Below the pieces are notes generated by a model that ran no database searches, was not told the origin of the DNA, and was given only the letters and a program-made list of their open reading frames with translations. From a virus, in IMG/VR virus record IMGVR_UViG_3300031702_000031, positions 1 to 31,141 of that record: a DNA stretch of 31,141 bases; one strand, 5' to 3'. The translations under genes and the position numbers were made by a program. Shown one piece after another: positions 6,965-31,001 of this stretch. Numbering within the stretch: position 1 is the first letter of the stretch; the number at the start of each line of letters is the position of its first letter.

Positions 6965-7723
6965 ATGCCTGCTCACCAACAGCAACATCGAATGACCAAA
7001 CGCCAAAAGAGAGTACTTAAGCAACAAGGAGTAATAGGGACAGACAACCAATTATCGACAGGATTTCAGATCAGTAAAGATATCGCTCCCATGACTAAAA
7101 ATCAGTCAATAGCGTTTGACGCTTGGGAAGAGGGAGCTAATCTAATGCTTCATGGTATTGCAGGAACGGGTAAAACCTTCTTGGGATTATACTTCTCTCT
7201 AAAAGCAGTCATGGCAAAAAACACATCATATCGAAAAGTGTATATTGTACGATCAGTTGTTCCGACTAGGGACATGGGATTTCTTCCTGGCTCTCAAAAA
7301 GACAAGATGAAAGTGTATGAAGCACCTTATTATGACATTGCATCAAAGTTATTTCAGCGTGGTGATGCCTACGAAATTCTAAAGCAAAAGAACAACGTAG
7401 AATTCATTTCAACATCCTTTCTACGAGGATCAACATTTGATGACTGCATCATTTTAGTTGACGAAGTTCAAAACATGAGCGATCAGGAATTGCACACAGT
7501 TATGACCCGAGTCGGCGAGAACTGTAAGATCATATTCTGCGGAGACGTTAAGCAGGATGACTTAACAAGCGAACGAAAGAAGGAGATGTCAGGTCTGCGT
7601 ACATTCATGAAGATCATTGAGCGTATGGATGAGTTTGATTTCATTGAGTTCGAAGTGTCGGATATCGTTCGAAGCGAGTTAGTCAAAGCATATATCATAG
7701 AACGAGATAATCAAGGACTATAA
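6965..7723 (+). CDS. phoH: PhoH-like ATPase
   Basis: This 252-residue P-loop ATPase has Walker A GIAGTGKT (residues 62-69), the PhoH signature VRSVVPTRDMGFLPG near residue 96, and Walker B IILVDEVQNM near residue 163. GDVKQDDL follows as the sensor region. PhoH proteins are common in marine phages; RNA-related ATPase or helicase activity has been proposed, but their role in infection is not settled. AAGGA precedes the ATG. Confidence 0.95.
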   Translation: MPAHQQQHRMTKRQKRVLKQQGVIGTDNQLSTGFQISKDIAPMTKNQSIAFDAWEEGANLMLHGIAGTGKTFLGLYFSLKAVMAKNTSYRKVYIVRSVVPTRDMGFLPGSQKDKMKVYEAPYYDIASKLFQRGDAYEILKQKNNVEFISTSFLRGSTFDDCIILVDEVQNMSDQELHTVMTRVGENCKIIFCGDVKQDDLTSERKKEMSGLRTFMKIIERMDEFDFIEFEVSDIVRSELVKAYIIERDNQGL

Positions 7724-7726
7724 ATA
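7719..7726 (+). promoter_or_regulatory. T4-type late promoter box TATAAATA
   Basis: An exact TATAAATA overlaps the phoH stop codon. By T4 geometry transcription would start near 7732, so it could drive the small genes leading to the PAAR tip protein. Confidence 0.5.
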
Positions 7727-7731
7727 GTAAT

Positions 7732-7920
7732 ATGGAAAATCAAAAAGACAAACAGAAACGCATGACCGAGCTGAACTCAGACGGTAATGAAACTAGGGGG
7801 CGAGAGGGTGAAGACCTTCTCGTTGAGATTCGACCTGAGTCTCTCGGTCAAATGGGCTGGGACTTTGGCGAAGGTAACGAAATCGATGATAAAATCGATA
7901 GAAAAATTTTAAGAGGTTAA
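7732..7920 (+). CDS. Small acidic hypothetical protein, 62 aa
   Basis: A soluble, highly charged protein beginning MENQKDKQKRMTELNSDG, with no membrane segment. The ATG would be leaderless if the overlapping late promoter is used; M11 at 7762 is the alternative start. It is followed after one base by another small gene and then the PAAR gene, suggesting a small late cluster. Family not recognised. Confidence 0.55.
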   Translation: MENQKDKQKRMTELNSDGNETRGREGEDLLVEIRPESLGQMGWDFGEGNEIDDKIDRKILRG

Positions 7921-7921
7921 T

Positions 7922-8056
7922 ATGTCAGTAGCAGATGACGCAACAAGATTACGAGTATTCCAACTTGCAGACGGCACTAGAGTCGGCAAGCAAATGGATA
8001 TAGATGAAGTAAATGCATTCCTAGCGGCTAACGCCGGCTCTAGCCTGATACGATAA
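7922..8056 (+). CDS. Small hypothetical protein, 44 aa
   Basis: The product reads MSVADDATRLRVFQLADGTR and ends AANAGSSLIR. Its stop overlaps the start of the PAAR gene (TAATG), which implies coupled translation. AAGAGG lies upstream of the ATG. The fixed position just before the spike-tip gene suggests a baseplate or tail accessory role, but this is inference from position only. Confidence 0.6.
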   Translation: MSVADDATRLRVFQLADGTRVGKQMDIDEVNAFLAANAGSSLIR

Positions 8057-8373
8057 TGCCTTTTGCCGCTAGAATAACAGATGCAATCTTAACAGGGCAT
8101 GTAGCTCCTTGTACGGTATCATCTACAATTCTATCAACACTACAGGCTAAAGTGTATGTGGAATCGAAACTGGCTGCCGTGACTGGCAGTCTCATAACAG
8201 CGCACACTCAGCCCAATCCAGGTGCTCCGCCACCTTGTATTCCTCATGCTGATGCAGTAACTGGATCTGGATCTGCTAAAGTCTTTATAGGTGGAATTTC
8301 TGCTAATAGGCTTGGTGATGTAGCTGATCTGGGCACGATAACAGGAAGTGCCACGAAAGTTAAAATAGGTTAA
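8056..8373 (+). CDS. PAAR-domain spike-tip protein (T4 gp5.4-like)
   Basis: This 105-residue protein has the PAAR layout: MPFAARITDAILTGH at the start, a proline-rich P-N-P-G-A-P-P-P turn with C-I-P-H-A-D, and a glycine-rich C-terminal repeat (VFIGGISANRLGDVAD) ending in strand-forming residues. PAAR proteins cap the membrane-piercing spike and bind a metal through His/Cys residues; C19, H51, C62 and H65 are candidates. This marks the phage as contractile-tailed. Confidence 0.85.
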   Translation: MPFAARITDAILTGHVAPCTVSSTILSTLQAKVYVESKLAAVTGSLITAHTQPNPGAPPPCIPHADAVTGSGSAKVFIGGISANRLGDVADLGTITGSATKVKIG

Positions 8374-8381
8374 AATAAAGG

Positions 8382-8410
8382 TTGACAACCACCTAAAAGT
8401 GTAGTATACT
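8382..8410 (+). promoter_or_regulatory. Sigma-70 promoter
   Basis: TTGACA and TATACT have a 17-base spacer, and GGTTGACAACC forms a short palindrome over the -35 box. It opens the run of early transcription units. Confidence 0.8.
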
Positions 8411-20956: not shown

Positions 20957-21041
20957 TATAACGCCTTTGATATGAGGAGTAAAAAAATTAAAAAAAATAC
21001 GTTCGTTGTCGGGAGAGATCGAACAAAACGGAGTAAAACAT

Positions 21042-21734
21042 ATGAGCAATCTAAAGCTTAAAATTATACCGATAGTAGCATTCGCACTATTCGCAACAGA
21101 GGCATATGCTAGTGATGTGTATATCGTACAAGCTGGTAGCAGTAGTACAATCGATATCACACAAACCGGTAATGGTAACACAGTAGGTAATTCTACAACA
21201 GCTACAACATTAAATGGCGATAGTCAAGATATTGACATAAGCCAACAAGGTAACTCGAACAAAACTGATATAGCTACAACAGCAGGATCAAGTTCAACAA
21301 CGATCAATATCCTAAACACAGGCGACTCTAACGAGACCGTCATGGGTATTGCCACAACCGGAACGACCTTCACTTCTACAGTGACAGGCGATAATAATCT
21401 GGTAACAGTATGTGGCACAAATGATAACTCTGGAGTTGCATCTGTTGGATCAACTACTGGCGGAACATCGACGGCGTCTACATCAGGTACGATAGCGGCC
21501 TGTACGACAGAGGTGACTGCTTCTGATACGACTACAACTCTAGCGACCACTGGTGATTATAACACAGTCAATCTAGAATTGGATGCTGCCGATGCAGTGA
21601 ATACCATAACAGTTGGCGGTAACGTGTCTAGTAACTTCAATGAGATTAATCTCACACAATCTACTACAGACATTCCTGTAGTTACTATGACAGTTGATGG
21701 TGATAGTAATGCGATTAACATCATACAGAATTAA
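21042..21734 (+). CDS. Curlin-repeat amyloid subunit 1 (CsgA/CsgB-like)
   Basis: This 230-residue protein has a signal peptide (MSNLKLKIIPIVAFALFATE, cleavage near YA-S) and a Ser/Thr/Gly/Asn/Asp-rich body. Curlin-type strand-turn units include VYIVQAGSSSTIDITQTGNG, then QDIDISQQGNSN and, at the end, GDSNAINIIQN. Two cysteines (in VTVCG and IAACT) are unusual for curlins. It probably forms part of an extracellular beta-helical amyloid exported through CsgG. The start behind CGGAGT is preferred over a TTG 36 bases upstream. Major and minor subunit roles cannot be told apart. Confidence 0.82.
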   Translation: MSNLKLKIIPIVAFALFATEAYASDVYIVQAGSSSTIDITQTGNGNTVGNSTTATTLNGDSQDIDISQQGNSNKTDIATTAGSSSTTINILNTGDSNETVMGIATTGTTFTSTVTGDNNLVTVCGTNDNSGVASVGSTTGGTSTASTSGTIAACTTEVTASDTTTTLATTGDYNTVNLELDAADAVNTITVGGNVSSNFNEINLTQSTTDIPVVTMTVDGDSNAINIIQN

Positions 21735-22812
21735 ACTACTATCAACACTTATACTATGTTTTGCTAGTTCTTTTGCATTGGGTAATACTACGGAAACGAT
21801 TGGTAGTATTACTTCGCAAAAGGGCAACCCTGCACAAATAACGAGAGATGGCGATAACATCTCTACGGAGCAGGGAACTGGTCTAGTTATGGATGATGAA
21901 ATAATCACAGCCAAGACCAAACTGGGACTCACATTCATAGACGATACTAGGGTCAGCGTCACAGAACAATCCGTATTAGTCATCGATGACTTTATATATG
22001 ATCCAAGTACTGGTACAGGCAAACTAGCAATGAACATCGCACTCGGTACTGTTAAGTACTCATCTGGTGCAATCGCAAGAAACTCAAGAGAAAATGTATC
22101 CCTAACCACACCCACTGCGACAATATCTGTTCGTGGTACTGACTTCACTATGACTGTAGACGAACTGGGCAGAAGTATCGTTATTCTGTTACCAAGTTGT
22201 CCTCCTGTGGGCGATTGCTGGACAGGTGAGATTATGGTTTCTACCGAAGTGGGACAGGTCATATTAAATCAGGCATATCAAGCAACATTAGTATCGAACA
22301 GAATGGCTACTCCAACTAAGCCTAAGATACTAGACATCACTGAAGCTAACATCGGCAACATGCTAATCATCACACCACCGCCTGAACTGAAAGGCGTAGG
22401 ATACATAGCTCAAGCAGAAGTTGCCGAATACTTAGATAGCGATTTGCTAGAATATGCCGAACTAAATTCGGACGAATTAGAAGAAGATAAACTAGAATTC
22501 CTAGAGCTTGATGTTAACAGGCTCGACATAGATTTCCTATTCAATGTGCTAGATGCCACTGCTATGCTACAAGACGATGAGTTAGCAATCGATCCAGTGC
22601 TTCCTACGATCAATACATATAGAACAACCGTTCAAGCATTCTATGACGAAGATAAAGTTGGCATCTACAGTGAAAGTTCTGTGCATATTTCAGATGTAAC
22701 TACAGAGCGTGTGATAGACGGTGACGTAAACATGTACAAAGACGGTGTTCCAGCACTCATCCAAGTAAACGGAGGTGGAGATGTTATCATCAATATTACG
22801 CAAAATCAGTAG
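21709..22812 (+). CDS. Secreted FecR-domain protein
   Basis: A 367-residue protein with a signal peptide (MRLTSYRIKLLSTLILCFAS, cleavage near ALG). A FecR domain runs from about residue 30 to 150; its signature is VSLTTPTATISVRGTDFTM, preceded by a repeat with KLGLTFIDDTRVSV. A Leu/Glu/Asp-rich middle (about 230-275) follows, and the end (GGGDVIINITQNQ) resembles a curlin half-repeat. FecR domains act in periplasmic sensing or surface binding. The ATG at 21709 is chosen because it gives a clean signal peptide. The gene overlaps both curlin genes (26 and 32 bases). Confidence 0.82.
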   Translation: MRLTSYRIKLLSTLILCFASSFALGNTTETIGSITSQKGNPAQITRDGDNISTEQGTGLVMDDEIITAKTKLGLTFIDDTRVSVTEQSVLVIDDFIYDPSTGTGKLAMNIALGTVKYSSGAIARNSRENVSLTTPTATISVRGTDFTMTVDELGRSIVILLPSCPPVGDCWTGEIMVSTEVGQVILNQAYQATLVSNRMATPTKPKILDITEANIGNMLIITPPPELKGVGYIAQAEVAEYLDSDLLEYAELNSDELEEDKLEFLELDVNRLDIDFLFNVLDATAMLQDDELAIDPVLPTINTYRTTVQAFYDEDKVGIYSESSVHISDVTTERVIDGDVNMYKDGVPALIQVNGGGDVIINITQNQ

Positions 22813-23773
22813 CACTCTAATTCTAGCGTGGTTCATATCCGCAGACGCATATGCCGATACTGGTACACCAGTGATGAATGTTAGTGGAAGTGGCAGTGAT
22901 TATATCTTTGTATACGAAGGAAATGATACAACAACCTATACAGACTTATCAGCTTTGGGCAATTCGATTATTGGATGGACAGCTACTTGCACATCAGGAA
23001 ACTGTACAGTTGGAGATACGCTTATAGTCGGTGGCATTGGTGGCAACGGTAATGATTACCTATTCTTGTACACATTCGATAGCGATGGCAATGTTGTTTA
23101 TCCAGTACCGGGAGCTTGGTACTCGTTTAGCACAACAGTGGCCGCCGCAACTCCAGTTTACGGATCAACTGCGCCGACCACAGCGCAACAAACTAGAATA
23201 AATGCAAAACTCGCACTAGCAGCCGCAGGACAAGGCGATACAGTAGAAGCAAGCATATTTGGTGATGATAATCTAATACACATTATACAGGCTGGTGGAG
23301 TAAGTTACTTAAACTTAATGATTAGCGGTAATCTCAATTCATTTGAATCTGAACAGGATTTAGCTACAGGCTCCCATGGATACATCGAAGCTACTATAAC
23401 TGGCAATAATAATGATGTAGATATATTACAGAAAGGCAACAACTTTGACGGTGCTGGCAGTAAAGCAACTATACTTACTATCACAGGAGATAGTAATGAT
23501 GTTGATATAAGGCAACACGGCAATGGTGATAAATTTATAGACTTAGAAATTACTGGCGATAATCACAAGGCAGATATATTTCAGAATGGAGCGGGTGCTC
23601 ATTCCGCTAGAGTAGAACTCGATGGCGAACAGCCATGGGATTTTAAGTTAGAGCAGAAAGGAGCAATCGATAAGGATTACACATTGCCACATACCATGAG
23701 CGATGGCACTGGAGTTAGTGGAACTTGTAATGCTTCAGGTGGTTGCAACCTAATAGTGTATCAAAATGACTAA
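22781..23773 (+). CDS. Curlin-repeat amyloid subunit 2
   Basis: This 330-residue protein has a signal peptide (MLSSILRKISSTLILAWFIS, cleavage near AYA-D), a non-repetitive N-terminal part and a curlin-like C-terminal half. Repeat units include GDDNLIHIIQAGG, GNNNDVDILQKGNN, GDSNDVDIRQHGNG and GDNHKADIFQNGAG at about 20-residue spacing. Two Cys pairs are present (TCTSGNC and GTCNASGGCN). GGAGG lies 5 bases before the ATG. Its N-terminal extension could mediate attachment, like CsgB, but this is inference. Confidence 0.85.
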   Translation: MLSSILRKISSTLILAWFISADAYADTGTPVMNVSGSGSDYIFVYEGNDTTTYTDLSALGNSIIGWTATCTSGNCTVGDTLIVGGIGGNGNDYLFLYTFDSDGNVVYPVPGAWYSFSTTVAAATPVYGSTAPTTAQQTRINAKLALAAAGQGDTVEASIFGDDNLIHIIQAGGVSYLNLMISGNLNSFESEQDLATGSHGYIEATITGNNNDVDILQKGNNFDGAGSKATILTITGDSNDVDIRQHGNGDKFIDLEITGDNHKADIFQNGAGAHSARVELDGEQPWDFKLEQKGAIDKDYTLPHTMSDGTGVSGTCNASGGCNLIVYQND

Positions 23774-24010: not shown

Positions 24011-24091
24011 ATGGATAGCTACGCAAAGTACATGAAATTCAAATATGGATTCAAAAAACGTAAGGGCTATTATGTGGACATTTACGTATGA
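24011..24091 (+). CDS. 26-residue leader peptide before the cyclase
   Basis: A tiny frame behind GGAG encodes MDSYAKYMKFKYGFKKRKGY and six more residues, very basic and Tyr-rich. Its stop overlaps the cyclase start (ATGA). The cyclase has no separate strong ribosome site, so translation through this leader may set cyclase levels. Confidence 0.45.
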   Translation: MDSYAKYMKFKYGFKKRKGYYVDIYV

Positions 24092-26121
24092 AGTATATTT
24101 TATCGCCATTATTTGCTATCATTACCACGCTACTTCTGACATGGCTAACGCTATCAAATCCTACCTTATTGCAGGTGATCGATCTAAAGATTGCAGATCA
24201 ACTCATAGTGCAAGAAAAAGAACCCGTCAACGATGTCGTACTGATCGACATATCAGAAAAGACTTTAGAAGTACATGGACAATATCCCTTACCTAGAGAC
24301 ATCTACGGTGACCTGATTGTCAGGTTACGAGAAGCTAACGCTGGTGTCATTGTATTCAACATATCATTTCCTGAAGAAGATCGTACAGGTATGGATGAGA
24401 TGTTCACATCAGTTCTCGGACAGGGCGTCATTCTATCTCACTTCCCTAGCAATAAAGCTCAAAACAGATCAGCATACAGTACTGCTATTGTACAGGTTGG
24501 TGGTGATGCTTTGGATTATATTTACAATTATCCTGGTATAGCCGCAAACTTAGAGAAGTATGAGACACAAGCAACTGGCATCGGAATTGCCAATACCCTA
24601 CCTGAGATCGATGGCGTTGTCAGACGATTGCCCATGCTGGCTGGCGTAGGTGACGACCTGTACCCATCTATCGTACTAGAGATATTCAAAGCGTACTCCG
24701 GATCCAACACATTTCAGGTGAAGTCAAACGACTTCGGGGTTACCGCAGTTCGTGTTAAAGGATTTCCAACGATAAAAACTGACCCAAGTTCTAGAATATG
24801 GATGAATCCAAACTACGTTTTTAAGCGTTATGATTTAGTCAAGGAGTTGCCCGATTTGCAAGGAGCAACAGTGTTTATTGGTGTTACTGCTGAAGGTGTC
24901 TCCAATCCCGTTCCTACGGCTTCTGGTGCTGTCTACGGACATGATGTGACTGCTAGATCATTTACGTCTGTTAAAAATAGATACAATATCATCACTCATC
25001 CGCTAGAAGAGTTCACCAAACTCATCGGCATACTCGCATTAGGTCTAGCCATTGTGCTACTGAGTTACATACGATTTGGCTGGGTAATATCAATAAGCAT
25101 GACTGGTGCTTTGATCTATCTTCCTGTATATTTCTTTAACACTTATATGCAACTGTATATCACTAGTATTCAAGGACTCATGGGAATCATAGTATTCGCA
25201 CATGTGTACGGAGTCAAGTACGGGCAAGAGTACTTCGAGAAGATGAAGATCAAGAAGCAGTTTGCTGGATATACATCTCCAGAAGTTGTGCTGATGCTAC
25301 AGAATAACCCCGAAATAGTTAAGAATGGTGTCAAGAAAGAAGTGTCAATTGTGTTCTCTGATCTACGAGGCTTCACGCCGCTTGGTGAGTCGTTTGGTGA
25401 CGATGTGAAGGGTCTAACTCAAGTAATGAACGCATACATGGACGCAATATCTGAGCCAGTCATTGATGCAAATGGCATGATAATCAAATACATTGGTGAC
25501 GCATCTATGCACATACACAATGCGCCTATGGATGACCCAGAGCATCCCAAGACAGCAGTACAAACTGGACTGAATATGCTAAGGGCTGTAGATAAATTCA
25601 ACACAGAACTAATGGCTCAAGGCAAGCCTGAAATTGGCATGGGTGCGGGCATCAATAGCGGACTAGGATATATCGGTGAGATGGGGTCGACCAAACGTCA
25701 CGCATACGACATACTTGGAGATGCTGTTAGCACTGCGGCTCGTATAGAAAGTAAATGTAAAGAGTATGGGTGTGTTTTACTTGTCGGTGGTAGCACATAT
25801 AGTACGACCAAAGACGATTTCTTCTACTTGAAAGTCGATGATCTAGCAGTAAAAGGCAAGACTATCGGCATTGAGATATACACAGTACTCGACCTAGACC
25901 CACTTGATTACACCACAGAAACTAAAATTCACAATGCGATGCATGATAAATATCGTAGTATGAAGTTTGACGATGCTATAAAACTATGCGAAACGCTCAA
26001 AGGAAGTTTTGGTGGTCAGATAGATGGCTACTATGACATGTGGATTGAACGTTGTGTATATATGAACACACAGACCCTTCCAAAAGACTGGAACGGAGTC
26101 TTCATCGCAACTACCAAATAG
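24088..26121 (+). CDS. CHASE2-class III adenylyl cyclase
   Basis: A 677-residue membrane protein. One N-terminal helix (residues 5-23) is followed by a periplasmic CHASE2 domain (about 24-305, with PLPRDIYGDLIVRLREANAG and RRLPMLAGVGDDLYPS), three helices (about 311-378) and a class III cyclase domain. Metal ligands D425 (FSDLRGF) and D471 (YIGDASM), adenine-selecting K467 and D541, and transition-state R552 are present, predicting ATP to cAMP. The usual transition-state Asn is Ser548. The domain order fits full-length bacterial CHASE2 cyclases. Curlins, FecR and this cyclase together suggest envelope or amyloid sensing. Confidence 0.93.
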   Translation: MKYILSPLFAIITTLLLTWLTLSNPTLLQVIDLKIADQLIVQEKEPVNDVVLIDISEKTLEVHGQYPLPRDIYGDLIVRLREANAGVIVFNISFPEEDRTGMDEMFTSVLGQGVILSHFPSNKAQNRSAYSTAIVQVGGDALDYIYNYPGIAANLEKYETQATGIGIANTLPEIDGVVRRLPMLAGVGDDLYPSIVLEIFKAYSGSNTFQVKSNDFGVTAVRVKGFPTIKTDPSSRIWMNPNYVFKRYDLVKELPDLQGATVFIGVTAEGVSNPVPTASGAVYGHDVTARSFTSVKNRYNIITHPLEEFTKLIGILALGLAIVLLSYIRFGWVISISMTGALIYLPVYFFNTYMQLYITSIQGLMGIIVFAHVYGVKYGQEYFEKMKIKKQFAGYTSPEVVLMLQNNPEIVKNGVKKEVSIVFSDLRGFTPLGESFGDDVKGLTQVMNAYMDAISEPVIDANGMIIKYIGDASMHIHNAPMDDPEHPKTAVQTGLNMLRAVDKFNTELMAQGKPEIGMGAGINSGLGYIGEMGSTKRHAYDILGDAVSTAARIESKCKEYGCVLLVGGSTYSTTKDDFFYLKVDDLAVKGKTIGIEIYTVLDLDPLDYTTETKIHNAMHDKYRSMKFDDAIKLCETLKGSFGGQIDGYYDMWIERCVYMNTQTLPKDWNGVFIATTK

Positions 26122-27459: not shown

Positions 27460-27528
27460 ATGGACTTGATCAAACCAATAACAACACTAACACCAAAGGG
27501 CTATATTAGAAATGCTATCGTTCAGTAA
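27460..27528 (+). CDS. Possible 22-residue leader peptide
   Basis: A tiny frame behind GAGGGAAG reads MDLIKPITTLTPKGYIRNAI plus two residues and overlaps the kinase start by 17 bases. The ribosome site is better than that of the kinase, so coupling is plausible. Unproven. Confidence 0.35.
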   Translation: MDLIKPITTLTPKGYIRNAIVQ

Positions 27529-28207
27529 CTACCTCAAAGAAGAAATAATAGAAGTGGAAGAGGGCGTCAATGACCCCGCAATATTCAAAGCTGTATTCCT
27601 AGCAGGTGGACCTGGATCAGGTAAATCATTCATTGTAGGTAAAACAGGTCTTCAAGCACTAGGCTTTAAAGTCGTCAACTCAGACGATGCATTCGAAAAA
27701 GCAATGGGCAAAGCAGGACTAGAGACAACACCAGAAAATATCTTTTCAGTCAAAGGTCAAGAACTCCGGGGCGCCGCAAAAGCACTAACGGGCGTTAAGC
27801 AGAATATGTGGCTTAAAGGTCGACTCGGTCTTGTCATTGACGGAACTGGTAAAGATACAGATAAATTAAAGAAGCAAGCGGCTACGCTGAAGAAGCTTGG
27901 ATACGATGTCGCAATGATATTCGTAAACACCGACCTTGCTACAGCACAAGCACGTAATCTCAAACGTAAGCGTACATTGCCCGCTGATGAAGTAGAGAAA
28001 TATTGGACAACAGTACAGAAGAACATTGGTGCATTCCAGACCTATTTTGGTAAGCAGAAGTTCACTGTAGTGGATAACTCTGAAGGTAAGGACTACGTTC
28101 AAGAGACTCTACGTGCATATAAAGAGATTACTAAGTTTACTAAGAATCCACCTGAAAACTCTAACGCTAAGAAGTGGATCGCAGGTCAAAAGGCTAGTAA
28201 AAAGTAA
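27512..28207 (+). CDS. P-loop (zeta-toxin-like) kinase with capsid-targeting-like N-terminus
   Basis: This 231-residue protein has Walker A GGPGSGKS (residues 31-38) in FLAGGPGSGKSFIVGK. DDAFEKAM follows, then LVIDGTGKDTDKLKK and a lid region with LKRKRTLP. This fits the zeta-toxin/AAA_33 nucleotide or sugar-nucleotide kinase group seen in T4-like marine phages. The start MLSFSNYLKEEI resembles the short capsid-targeting leaders of T4 internal proteins, and with the late promoter this suggests packaging into the head. The substrate is unknown. Confidence 0.78.
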   Translation: MLSFSNYLKEEIIEVEEGVNDPAIFKAVFLAGGPGSGKSFIVGKTGLQALGFKVVNSDDAFEKAMGKAGLETTPENIFSVKGQELRGAAKALTGVKQNMWLKGRLGLVIDGTGKDTDKLKKQAATLKKLGYDVAMIFVNTDLATAQARNLKRKRTLPADEVEKYWTTVQKNIGAFQTYFGKQKFTVVDNSEGKDYVQETLRAYKEITKFTKNPPENSNAKKWIAGQKASKK

Positions 28208-28216: not shown

Positions 28217-28247
28217 ATTATGAAACGAAGTGAATTGGAGATGTCAA

Positions 28248-28787
28248 GTGAACTTAAAAGAACTAACGTGGGAGAACCACAAATCCGCAGAACGTAAGAA
28301 ATTTGCGTCTGTGCTAATGAGCGGCAATATTGACCCTGCCCTCTATCATCGATACCTTGTAAATCAGTTTTATAACTACGTTGCTCTAGAGTACAAGATG
28401 CCTCTAGTGGAACTTGGTCTGAGGGGTATCAATCGAGCAGAACTAATTTCTGAAGATATTATCGAACTAGAGGACATGTATGGACTCGATAGAGCCGATG
28501 TGTCAATAGCCCAATCTACTAAAGACTATGCTAAATATTGCGAGGAGCTGTACGATAATAATAAAGACGGCTTGATCGCACATATGTATGTCCGACATTT
28601 TGGAGATATGTATGGTGGTGCTATGATCGCTAAACGTATTCCCGGTAGTGGTATGATGTACAAATTTGAGAATGTAGACACACTGAAGACCACTGTTCGT
28701 GGTATGCTGGACGATAGTATGGCACCTGAAGCGAACCGTTGCTTTGAATTTGCAATAAGACTATTTGGAGAATTAGAAAATGACTAA
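28248..28787 (+). CDS. hemO: Heme oxygenase (GTG start)
   Basis: The 179-residue helical protein opens MNLKELTWENHKSAERKKF; His11 matches the proximal heme ligand in the T-x-x-x-H-x-x-A-E helix of heme oxygenases. GLIAHMYVRHFGDMYGGAMI near residue 115 is the distal helix with its G-D-x-x-G-G motif. The enzyme opens heme to biliverdin, CO and iron. The GTG is chosen because GGAG lies 7 bases upstream and the start aligns with the family. The following two genes overlap in sequence, forming a bilin operon with the reductase that would use its product. Confidence 0.9.
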   Translation: MNLKELTWENHKSAERKKFASVLMSGNIDPALYHRYLVNQFYNYVALEYKMPLVELGLRGINRAELISEDIIELEDMYGLDRADVSIAQSTKDYAKYCEELYDNNKDGLIAHMYVRHFGDMYGGAMIAKRIPGSGMMYKFENVDTLKTTVRGMLDDSMAPEANRCFEFAIRLFGELEND

Positions 28788-28926
28788 TACAGACCTTGAA
28801 GCGTCATATGAGAAAGTGATGGAAGCACTCGAGGAGAGAAAGCGAAGAATGAACCGACTACAGACAATGCTGATCGGTCTTTACGCAGTTACAGTAGTGA
28901 TGTTATTTATTGGAGCATGGCTATGA
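28780..28926 (+). CDS. Membrane microprotein between the bilin genes, 48 aa
   Basis: It starts MTNTDLEASYEKVMEALEER as a charged helix, then RKRRMNRLQ and one C-terminal transmembrane helix (about residues 30-47). Positive residues before the helix predict a cytoplasmic N-terminus. It overlaps the heme oxygenase stop by 8 bases and the reductase start by 4 (ATGA). Its place inside the operon suggests it could anchor the pathway to the membrane; no family recognised. Confidence 0.7.
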   Translation: MTNTDLEASYEKVMEALEERKRRMNRLQTMLIGLYAVTVVMLFIGAWL

Positions 28927-29606
28927 GTATTATTTGGAAAAGTCTCATTGACTTACAGAATCACTTCATTGATGAGTTTTCTGGTAGTGGAATCGAAGTA
29001 CAAGAACCTGGTATGGAACAATTTAACAAGCCTGGTTGGGTAAACAGAGTTTGGACATCCCACGACTATCGTAGGGCACACGTTGATGTTGTCGATATGC
29101 GTGAAGAGAAGAAGATGTGGATGATGCATGTCTGCGTATTCCCTCACACTGACAGTGATGCACCTATCTACGGATTTGATGTGATCGCTGGCGCTAATAA
29201 GATGACAGGCGCATTTCATGATTTCTCTGCTACGACTAATCTGGAACACCCGATGATCGATTGGTTCGGTGAAGTTGCATCTGCGTTATCATGGAAACGT
29301 GAACGAGAGTTACCGCCATGGGCTAAAGCCATCTTCACTGATCATATGATCGCCGCAGGTATGGTTAAAGAACCCGCAGAGATCGCACAGATAACTGGTG
29401 CGGCAATGGAAACACTATCATACTATCTAAAAGAAGTCGGTAATTACAACGGATATTCTTCACACGAATTAGGCATAGCGACACAGAATAACTATGCACA
29501 TCATCAGAAGCAGAATCCTCACACACCGAATGTCATGAAGAGCCTAGGCATCGATCCAGATGACGTAGACTTATTCATCCAGAAGTGTCTTTTTCCAGAG
29601 CTTTAA
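28923..29606 (+). CDS. pcyX: Ferredoxin-dependent bilin reductase, PcyX-like
   Basis: This 227-residue protein has the FDBR core: YRRAHVDVVD, MHVCVFP, PIYGFDVIAG and TGAFHDFS, with ELPPWAKAIF later. Aligned by eye with cyanobacterial PcyA, His69 and Asp86 match its His88 and Asp105, while its catalytic Glu76 is Asp55 here. This fits PcyX, the viral type reported to reduce biliverdin to phycoerythrobilin. Electrons would come from ferredoxin; none is encoded in this window. The ATG is coupled to the upstream stop. Confidence 0.88.
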   Translation: MSIIWKSLIDLQNHFIDEFSGSGIEVQEPGMEQFNKPGWVNRVWTSHDYRRAHVDVVDMREEKKMWMMHVCVFPHTDSDAPIYGFDVIAGANKMTGAFHDFSATTNLEHPMIDWFGEVASALSWKRERELPPWAKAIFTDHMIAAGMVKEPAEIAQITGAAMETLSYYLKEVGNYNGYSSHELGIATQNNYAHHQKQNPHTPNVMKSLGIDPDDVDLFIQKCLFPEL

Positions 29607-30041: not shown

Positions 30042-31001
30042 ATGGAATTAGTAACAATTTGGATGGCAATAGGTTTTACATTTGCCGCATATTCTGTAGT
30101 AGCAAACGATTCGGTGCAAACCTTAGGTACATGGATCGCATCAAATAATGAAAAGTTCAACTGGAAAACCATGTGGTTGTCTGCTTCAGCAATTATGTTG
30201 TGGGCATTATGGTACGGTTGGTACATGTATGGCGGTGATATAAGCTATGGTCGATTAAACAAGATACCGTTTCAAGAAGTGCAATGGTATCATGCAACGG
30301 CGCCAGGCGTTCTGCTACTATTAACTCGGGTAGGTGTGCCCGTATCAACCTCATTCTTGGTTCTATCAGCATTCGCTAGTACTTTCGTATTAGAAAAGAT
30401 GCTTGTGAAATCGATGATGGGATATGCTGTTGCCGCAGTTGCGGCTTACGCAATCTGGATGGTCGTAAGTAGACTGTTAGATGAAGCTAAACCAGTGAAA
30501 GAGGAACACAAAACTTACTGGCGAATAGGGCAATGGATCACTACAGGTTTCTTATGGTGGACATGGCTGTCTCATGATATGGCAAACATTGCTGTATTCT
30601 TACCGAGAGAGTTACCTATAGATTTGATGCTAGTCATCAGTGCAGTCTTTGTAGTCGGGCTTGGTTTCATGTTCAGAGAGGGCGGTGGTAAGATACAGCA
30701 GATAGTCCTTGAAAAGCATAACACTAGATACGTTCGGTCAGCTACGATAATCGATGCAGTGTATTGGATGATCTTATTCTTCTTTAAAGAGTTAAATGAT
30801 ATCCCTATGAGTACGACATGGGTGTTCGTTGGCTTACTATCAGGAAGGGAACTTGCAATCGCATCTTTCACTGGTAAAGAGAAGTTCAAGTCAGTCTTTC
30901 CATTGATCGGTAGAGACTTTTTGAAGATGATGGTAGGACTTGCCGCATCACTTGGCATTGTTCTTATGATACATTATGTACTAGTGCCAGGAGGATATTA
31001 A
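30042..31001 (+). CDS. PiT-like (phosphate-transporter superfamily) membrane protein
   Basis: This 319-residue protein has about eight transmembrane helices. The two halves carry matching motifs, VVANDSVQTLGTW near residue 19 and WLSHDMANIAVFLPR near residue 177. These resemble the duplicated G-x-N-D-x-x-N-A signature of PiT phosphate/sulfate permeases. A further motif, RVGVPVSTSFLVLSAFAST, matches the PVSTT helix of that superfamily. Ion uptake, probably phosphate, is inferred; the substrate is not proven. It follows the exported beta protein after 13 bases. Confidence 0.72.
   Translation: MELVTIWMAIGFTFAAYSVVANDSVQTLGTWIASNNEKFNWKTMWLSASAIMLWALWYGWYMYGGDISYGRLNKIPFQEVQWYHATAPGVLLLLTRVGVPVSTSFLVLSAFASTFVLEKMLVKSMMGYAVAAVAAYAIWMVVSRLLDEAKPVKEEHKTYWRIGQWITTGFLWWTWLSHDMANIAVFLPRELPIDLMLVISAVFVVGLGFMFREGGGKIQQIVLEKHNTRYVRSATIIDAVYWMILFFFKELNDIPMSTTWVFVGLLSGRELAIASFTGKEKFKSVFPLIGRDFLKMMVGLAASLGIVLMIHYVLVPGGY

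Follow-up and report, generated by a model that had tools for sequence, protein, structure and literature searches.

A hemO-pcyX cassette in a T4-like marine phage with a predicted route from heme to phycoerythrobilin

Viral hemO-pcyX cassettes place a heme oxygenase gene upstream of the gene for PcyX, a ferredoxin-dependent bilin reductase whose type enzyme, PcyX_EBK42635, has been crystallised (5owg). This phage cassette, its resemblance to a locus in Pelagibacter phage Mosig EXVC030M and a form containing alaS, the gene for 5-aminolevulinate synthase, have already been published (PMC11480375), and the co-occurrence of these genes is called enigmatic there. The alaS-containing form is a three-gene or broken cassette, valaS-hemO-pcyA/X. 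Cyanophages such as P-SSM2 and P-HM2 also encode a route from heme to phycoerythrobilin, consisting of ho1 and PebS (PebS product according to PMC11480375). In P-SSM2, the two genes lie far apart (51.0 kb vs 213.7 kb). PcyA of cyanobacteria and cyanophages belongs to the same superfamily and shares the same fold. In the literature searched, we found no paper on heme oxygenases of Pelagibacter phages, and the main text of the Mosig announcement mentions neither heme, bilin, ferredoxin, auxiliary nor oxygenase. The puzzle presented by such loci is that a pink light-harvesting pigment would be made by the phage of a probably heterotrophic host.

We analyzed a 31,141-base IMG/VR virus record (IMGVR_UViG_3300031702_000031), hereafter called the window, which is classed as linear and is therefore probably a fragment. 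Near its right end, hemO, a 48-codon ORF and pcyX follow each other on the + strand in three frames that overlap end to end (Table 1). A sequence-only reading of this DNA had named a heme oxygenase and a PcyX-like reductase, and both were found where it had placed them, on the + strand and with family matches to PF01126 and PF05996, respectively; the 48-codon ORF between the two is absent from it. Taken together, the locus is very likely an auxiliary metabolic hemO-pcyX cassette of an uncultured, T4-like marine phage that would convert heme to phycoerythrobilin; as its purpose, the bilin or the electrons spent on it are tentatively favoured over iron alone. The window shares with the described viral cassette its reductase clade, the residues Asp55, His69 and Asp86 and the upstream position of hemO, but differs in having a membrane ORF between the genes. 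Of 83 loci, 7 contain a relative of this ORF, a count in which the window and its copy L001 are included, and family-profile searches returned no family over the cut-off for it. The start of hemO at 28248 corresponds to the residue at which its homologues begin. For pcyX, the second ATG (28923) is a better start than the first (28917) because it follows a GGAG at a spacing of 7 nt and, as ATGA, overlaps the preceding stop codon. A CTAAATA late-promoter motif just upstream of hemO (28210) was considered and set aside, the motif occurring 7 times on the + strand vs 4.3 expected from simple shuffles and being missing from most relatives. Neither an Rfam match nor a tRNA was found in the window.

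Table 1. Features of the window and genes near two stand-alone heme oxygenases (positions refer to the window unless a locus is named).
Feature	Position	Strand	Remarks
P-loop kinase / zeta-toxin-like ATPase	27512..28207	+	PF06414 1.2e-10, PF13671 6.2e-10; neighbour outside the pathway
GGAG, ribosome-binding-like site	28237..28240	+	7 nt before hemO GTG 28248; inferred from spacing
Heme oxygenase (hemO)	28248..28787	+	179 aa, GTG start; in-frame alternative GTG 28230
48-codon ORF, one hydrophobic segment (membrane peptide)	28780..28926	+	overlaps hemO upstream and pcyX downstream
GGAG, ribosome-binding-like site	28912..28915	+	7 nt before pcyX ATG 28923; inferred from spacing
PcyX-type ferredoxin-dependent bilin reductase (pcyX)	28923..29606	+	227 aa; 229 aa from ATG 28917
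Small outer-membrane-barrel-like phage protein	29693..30028	+	PF24653 4e-5 (just below cut-off), phrog_417 1.9e-5; neighbour
319-aa membrane protein	30042..31001	+	matches phosphate transporter 6l85 in a profile search, E 6.3e-4; neighbour
HemJ-like gene	L298:5862-6287		UPF0093, E 1.4e-46; near stand-alone heme oxygenase
TonB-dependent receptor gene	L287:5096-6916		near stand-alone heme oxygenase

The reductase matches PF05996 over the cut-off (E 7.6e-13). Its nearest solved protein by sequence is 5owg (E 4.1e-67, 46% identity over aligned residues; best PcyA E 2.1e-12), which is also the top Foldseek match of its confident AlphaFold2 model (pLDDT 92.4, pTM 0.90). Using VIA-align 2, the model was superimposed on 5owg with a Z of 26.2 and an rmsd of 0.9 over 178 residues, and on PcyA with a Z of 25.1 and an rmsd of 2.4 over 219. 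The Z values for PcyX and PcyA are near-equal, and it is the rmsd and the sequence that tell them apart. The Asp55/His69/Asp86 pattern pointed out in the sequence-only reading is numbered correctly from the ATG at 28923 (from 28917, the residues would be 57, 71 and 88). In a survey of 166 rows representing 156 distinct contigs, the PcyX-specific Asp and the His were each kept in 166/166 rows; the second Asp was seen in 165, the remaining row being unreadable at this position. Asp55 is called PcyX-specific in PMC11480375; the five PcyA sequences compared here have Glu at this position and the two PebS sequences His or Glu, the latter also having Asn where the window reductase has His.

Phylogenetic placement was determined using a maximum-likelihood tree of 78 rows, for which the 156 distinct contigs were thinned to 70 rows at 85% identity and from which L092, proteins under 215 aa and the alphaproteobacterial PcyA (the published AX clade) were left out. 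The window falls inside a PcyX clade (71 rows, 100/99) that takes in the crystallised PcyX and Mosig, while cyanophage PcyA and PebS lie outside it, PebS as a separate 100/100 clade. The PcyX assignment of the sequence-only reading thus passed the tree test that this reading had itself proposed. The PcyX clade is further divided: a lineage of 21 rows (99/96) holds Mosig and 5owg, and the window is placed in a separate one of 20 rows (99/96), which itself sits in a less well supported set of 30. By sequence, the window is a further member of the cassette family whose lineage stands apart from that of the crystallised enzyme; we know of no assayed enzyme from this lineage. Alphaproteobacterial PcyA is grouped with PcyX in an AX lineage in PMC10151467. 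A functional PcyA with phycocyanobilin as its product would fit the similar Z values and has a precedent in the enzyme of freshwater phage CB_2, which makes phycocyanobilin (PMC11480375) and is without Asp55. Given that the window reductase has Asp rather than Glu at the position of PcyA Glu76, lies in the PcyX clade and superimposes with the lower rmsd on PcyX, we regard this as highly unlikely. A viral bilin reductase encoded next to a heme oxygenase in another locus (L305:4001-5344) carries Lys at the position of PcyX Asp55 and PcyA Glu76, possibly representing a third active-site type.

The hemO product carries the marks of the heme oxygenase family, namely a match to PF01126 (family profile search, E 1.7e-17), the proximal His (His11) and the distal Asp-Gly motif (RHFGDMYGG), and the closest proteins of known structure are likewise heme oxygenases (1iw0, E 1.3e-11). 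His11, Gly119, Asp120, Gly123 and Gly124 are invariant in a 22-row alignment of phage relatives. In HmuO and human HO-1, a hydrogen-bond network that includes the distal Asp is believed to support catalysis (PMC7948506). In a tree of heme oxygenases of at least 165 aa, the window sits in broadly the same lineage as in the PcyX tree.

Judging from the characterised relatives, both the reactions and the product, phycoerythrobilin, can be predicted with high confidence. The heme oxygenase would open host heme, yielding biliverdin IXalpha, iron and CO, and PcyX would reduce biliverdin via 15,16-dihydrobiliverdin to phycoerythrobilin in a four-electron reaction. The electrons would be supplied by host ferredoxin, which we assume because 17 of 18 PcyX records, the window included, gave no match in a search for ferredoxin genes. 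Mosig is the only PcyX record with such a gene, as in an earlier search of 16 records; among the cyanophages, it was found in P-SSM2. In Mosig, the phage of a heterotroph, hemO and the bilin reductase gene are adjacent and in overlapping frames as in the window, but identities to the window are 48% for the reductase and 38.5% for the heme oxygenase, the flanking genes differ, and neither a ferredoxin, which Mosig has, nor a relative of the annotated ferrochelatase of Mosig was found in the window fragment. G+C content is 41% for the window vs 33% for the Mosig locus. Among the 53 loci initially assigned to the Mosig side (L002, L031-L082), an Hsp20-like gene lies upstream of the heme oxygenase gene in 48 and a ClpS-like gene in 46.

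With regard to heme supply, 9 of 28 PcyX records gave an AlaS match. One of these is the 91-kb contig of L003, the nearest relative (94% identity in PcyX), where alaS lies ca. 1.6 kb upstream of pcyX. A TIGR01821 search did not find AlaS in the other 19, among them the 31-kb window, which shares only hemO and pcyX with the published three-gene cassette. Since the window record is a fragment, valaS may lie elsewhere in the genome. In L003, the AlaS gene (7176-8384) is located between the genes for a cell-wall hydrolase and the kinase, and the window has a short gap there.

Relatives of the reductase were found on 179 viral contigs with one query (80 of 179 kept), and a profile query places the PcyX family on at least 584 viral contigs (80 kept). 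Among the matches listed, 152 of 156 distinct PcyX contigs have an upstream heme oxygenase gene on the same strand, as does the window. The gap between the two genes does not exceed 60 nt on 96 contigs, measures 60-300 nt on 43 and is longer on 13. Of the four remaining contigs, three have PcyX at or near the contig end and one (L161) is a real exception. Searching with the heme oxygenase as bait, 66 of 80 loci, L305 among these, had a PcyX-profile match within the locus. Among close relatives, 21 reductase pairs gave a median dN/dS of 0.060 and 19 heme oxygenase pairs one of 0.157, these being the pairs within the dS range out of 45 randomly ordered candidates; they share sequences and are not independent. 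By this measure, both genes are under purifying selection, with the reductase the more constrained. The relatives on 179 viral contigs and the low dN/dS of both genes exclude chance. Decay of the cassette to a functionless passenger of this phage could be argued from the missing AlaS, which the nearest relative has, but is barely credible in view of the two intact frames, the kept catalytic residues and the low dN/dS.

The near-obligate pairing with the oxygenase, the stronger constraint on PcyX and the presence of AlaS in some relatives lead us to prefer, tentatively and with somewhat less than even confidence, the bilin or the electrons spent making it as the selected trait rather than iron release alone. 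The alternative is that iron or heme turnover is the purpose, with the heme oxygenase freeing iron for the virocell and PcyX merely clearing biliverdin and thereby pulling the reaction forward. Iron supply is discussed in PMC11480375, and this explanation gains from heme oxygenases that occur alone. In 14 of the 80 heme oxygenase-baited loci (L287, L288, L291, L292, L294, L295, L296, L298, L299, L300, L301, L302, L303 and L304), no bilin reductase was found anywhere on the contig, these contigs being fragments of 7-67 kb. The oxygenase step alone can therefore be useful, which counts against a bilin purpose, as do the 19 of 28 PcyX records in which AlaS was not found. Further, HemJ genes, several of them near-identical, lie near 6 and TonB-dependent receptor genes near 2 of these 14 loci; neither was seen in the partly overlapping PcyX-linked sets of 29, 53, 79 and 63 loci. 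Against iron turnover speak the joint occurrence of PcyX and heme oxygenase on nearly all PcyX contigs among the matches listed and the tighter constraint on PcyX, and in case of the records with AlaS, heme would be made and then broken with no net iron. We therefore consider it possible but rather doubtful.

The stand-alone heme oxygenases may also be an unfair stand-in for iron turnover, as they differ at the distal catalytic residue. All 14 have the distal motif GELHGG, whereas the 66 PcyX-linked proteins have GDMYGG (65) or GDLSGG (1); Glu thus replaces the catalytic Asp in 14/14 loci without and 0/66 loci with PcyX. The 11 of these proteins included in the tree group together (100/99) and branch from within the PcyX-linked heme oxygenases, which suggests a single loss of PcyX accompanied by a change at the catalytic Asp. 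In the part of the cassette literature searched, we found no description of this clade or its Asp-to-Glu change. The two kinds of related phage heme oxygenase, PcyX-linked and stand-alone, which differ at one catalytic residue, offer a natural comparison and make the purpose of the cassette testable. A broader model, which may well prove wrong, would be that phages of non-photosynthetic marine bacteria carry a dedicated bilin pathway (AlaS in some, heme oxygenase and PcyX) whose benefit during infection comes from the linear tetrapyrrole or from the reducing power used to make it, with no phage photoreceptor involved, and that loss of PcyX is followed by a shift in the active-site chemistry of the heme oxygenase, visible as the Asp-to-Glu change.

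Bilins are the chromophores of phytochromes and phycobiliproteins, and the pigment could accordingly be the chromophore of a photoreceptor or another bilin protein encoded by either host or phage. For a related phycocyanobilin cassette, a phytochrome or a bilin-binding globin is proposed in PMC11480375. A search for bilin-binding proteins, as suggested in the sequence-only reading, gave no PHY (0/21) and no GAF match (0/21) in 18 PcyX phage records and 3 cyanophages, while bacterial controls matched. Based on this absence of PHY and GAF domains, no use of the pigment is visible in the PcyX records. The same reading had seen no photosynthesis genes, and this extends to the relatives: psbA/psbD-type matches were found in 0 of 28 PcyX records vs all 3 cyanophage controls, psbA being present in the phages that carry PebS. 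From these searches of phage records for PHY, GAF and psbA, a chromophore role is unlikely, and we retain the bilin or its electron cost as the preferred trait.

The gene content identifies the carrier as a T4-like phage, with a late-promoter regulator (gp33-like), gp59 and gp32 downstream of the cassette in 23-26 of 29 window-side loci as first grouped. Cultured relatives of single genes, examined for the window and for its relative L007, infect cyanobacteria, SAR11, OM43 and others; the host is probably heterotrophic. Among the neighbouring genes, the kinase gene was matched in 16 of 83 loci and the gene for the 319-aa membrane protein in 13 of 83 (both counts including the window and L001). 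The latter protein had no match among annotated phages, and its AlphaFold2 model was poor (pLDDT 38.5) and not used. Weak PF01384 matches in 8/8 members (best 0.0018) point to a remote relative of PiT/PHO4 phosphate transporters. Further upstream, a gene combining a CHASE2 domain with a guanylate/adenylate cyclase (24088-26121) lies downstream of curlin-repeat-like ORFs (21006-23773). The CHASE2-cyclase shows 49% identity to a gene of OM43 phage Melnitz and 33% to one of Pelagibacter phage HTVC008M, and a curli-region protein encoded nearby is related to proteins of these same two phages; curli genes of such phages are described in PMC9004378.

A PcyX scan of genome contigs returned 5 loci in metagenome-assembled genomes, which were considered and set aside as candidates for bacterial PcyX. 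One of them, L091, looks like phage on visual inspection, its heme oxygenase gene being preceded by Hsp20-like and ClpS-like ORFs as in the Mosig-side lineage, and the others either come from short contigs or lie at the end of one, so that no claim is made. PF05996 was matched in 3 of 385 genomes of one class (2 over the cut-off), one of these being the L092 genome itself. Finally, PcyX and heme oxygenase were also observed on three contigs (L134, L146 and L165) that are 278-364 kb long and have a T4-type capsid gene as well, and the cassette may therefore occur in jumbo phages.
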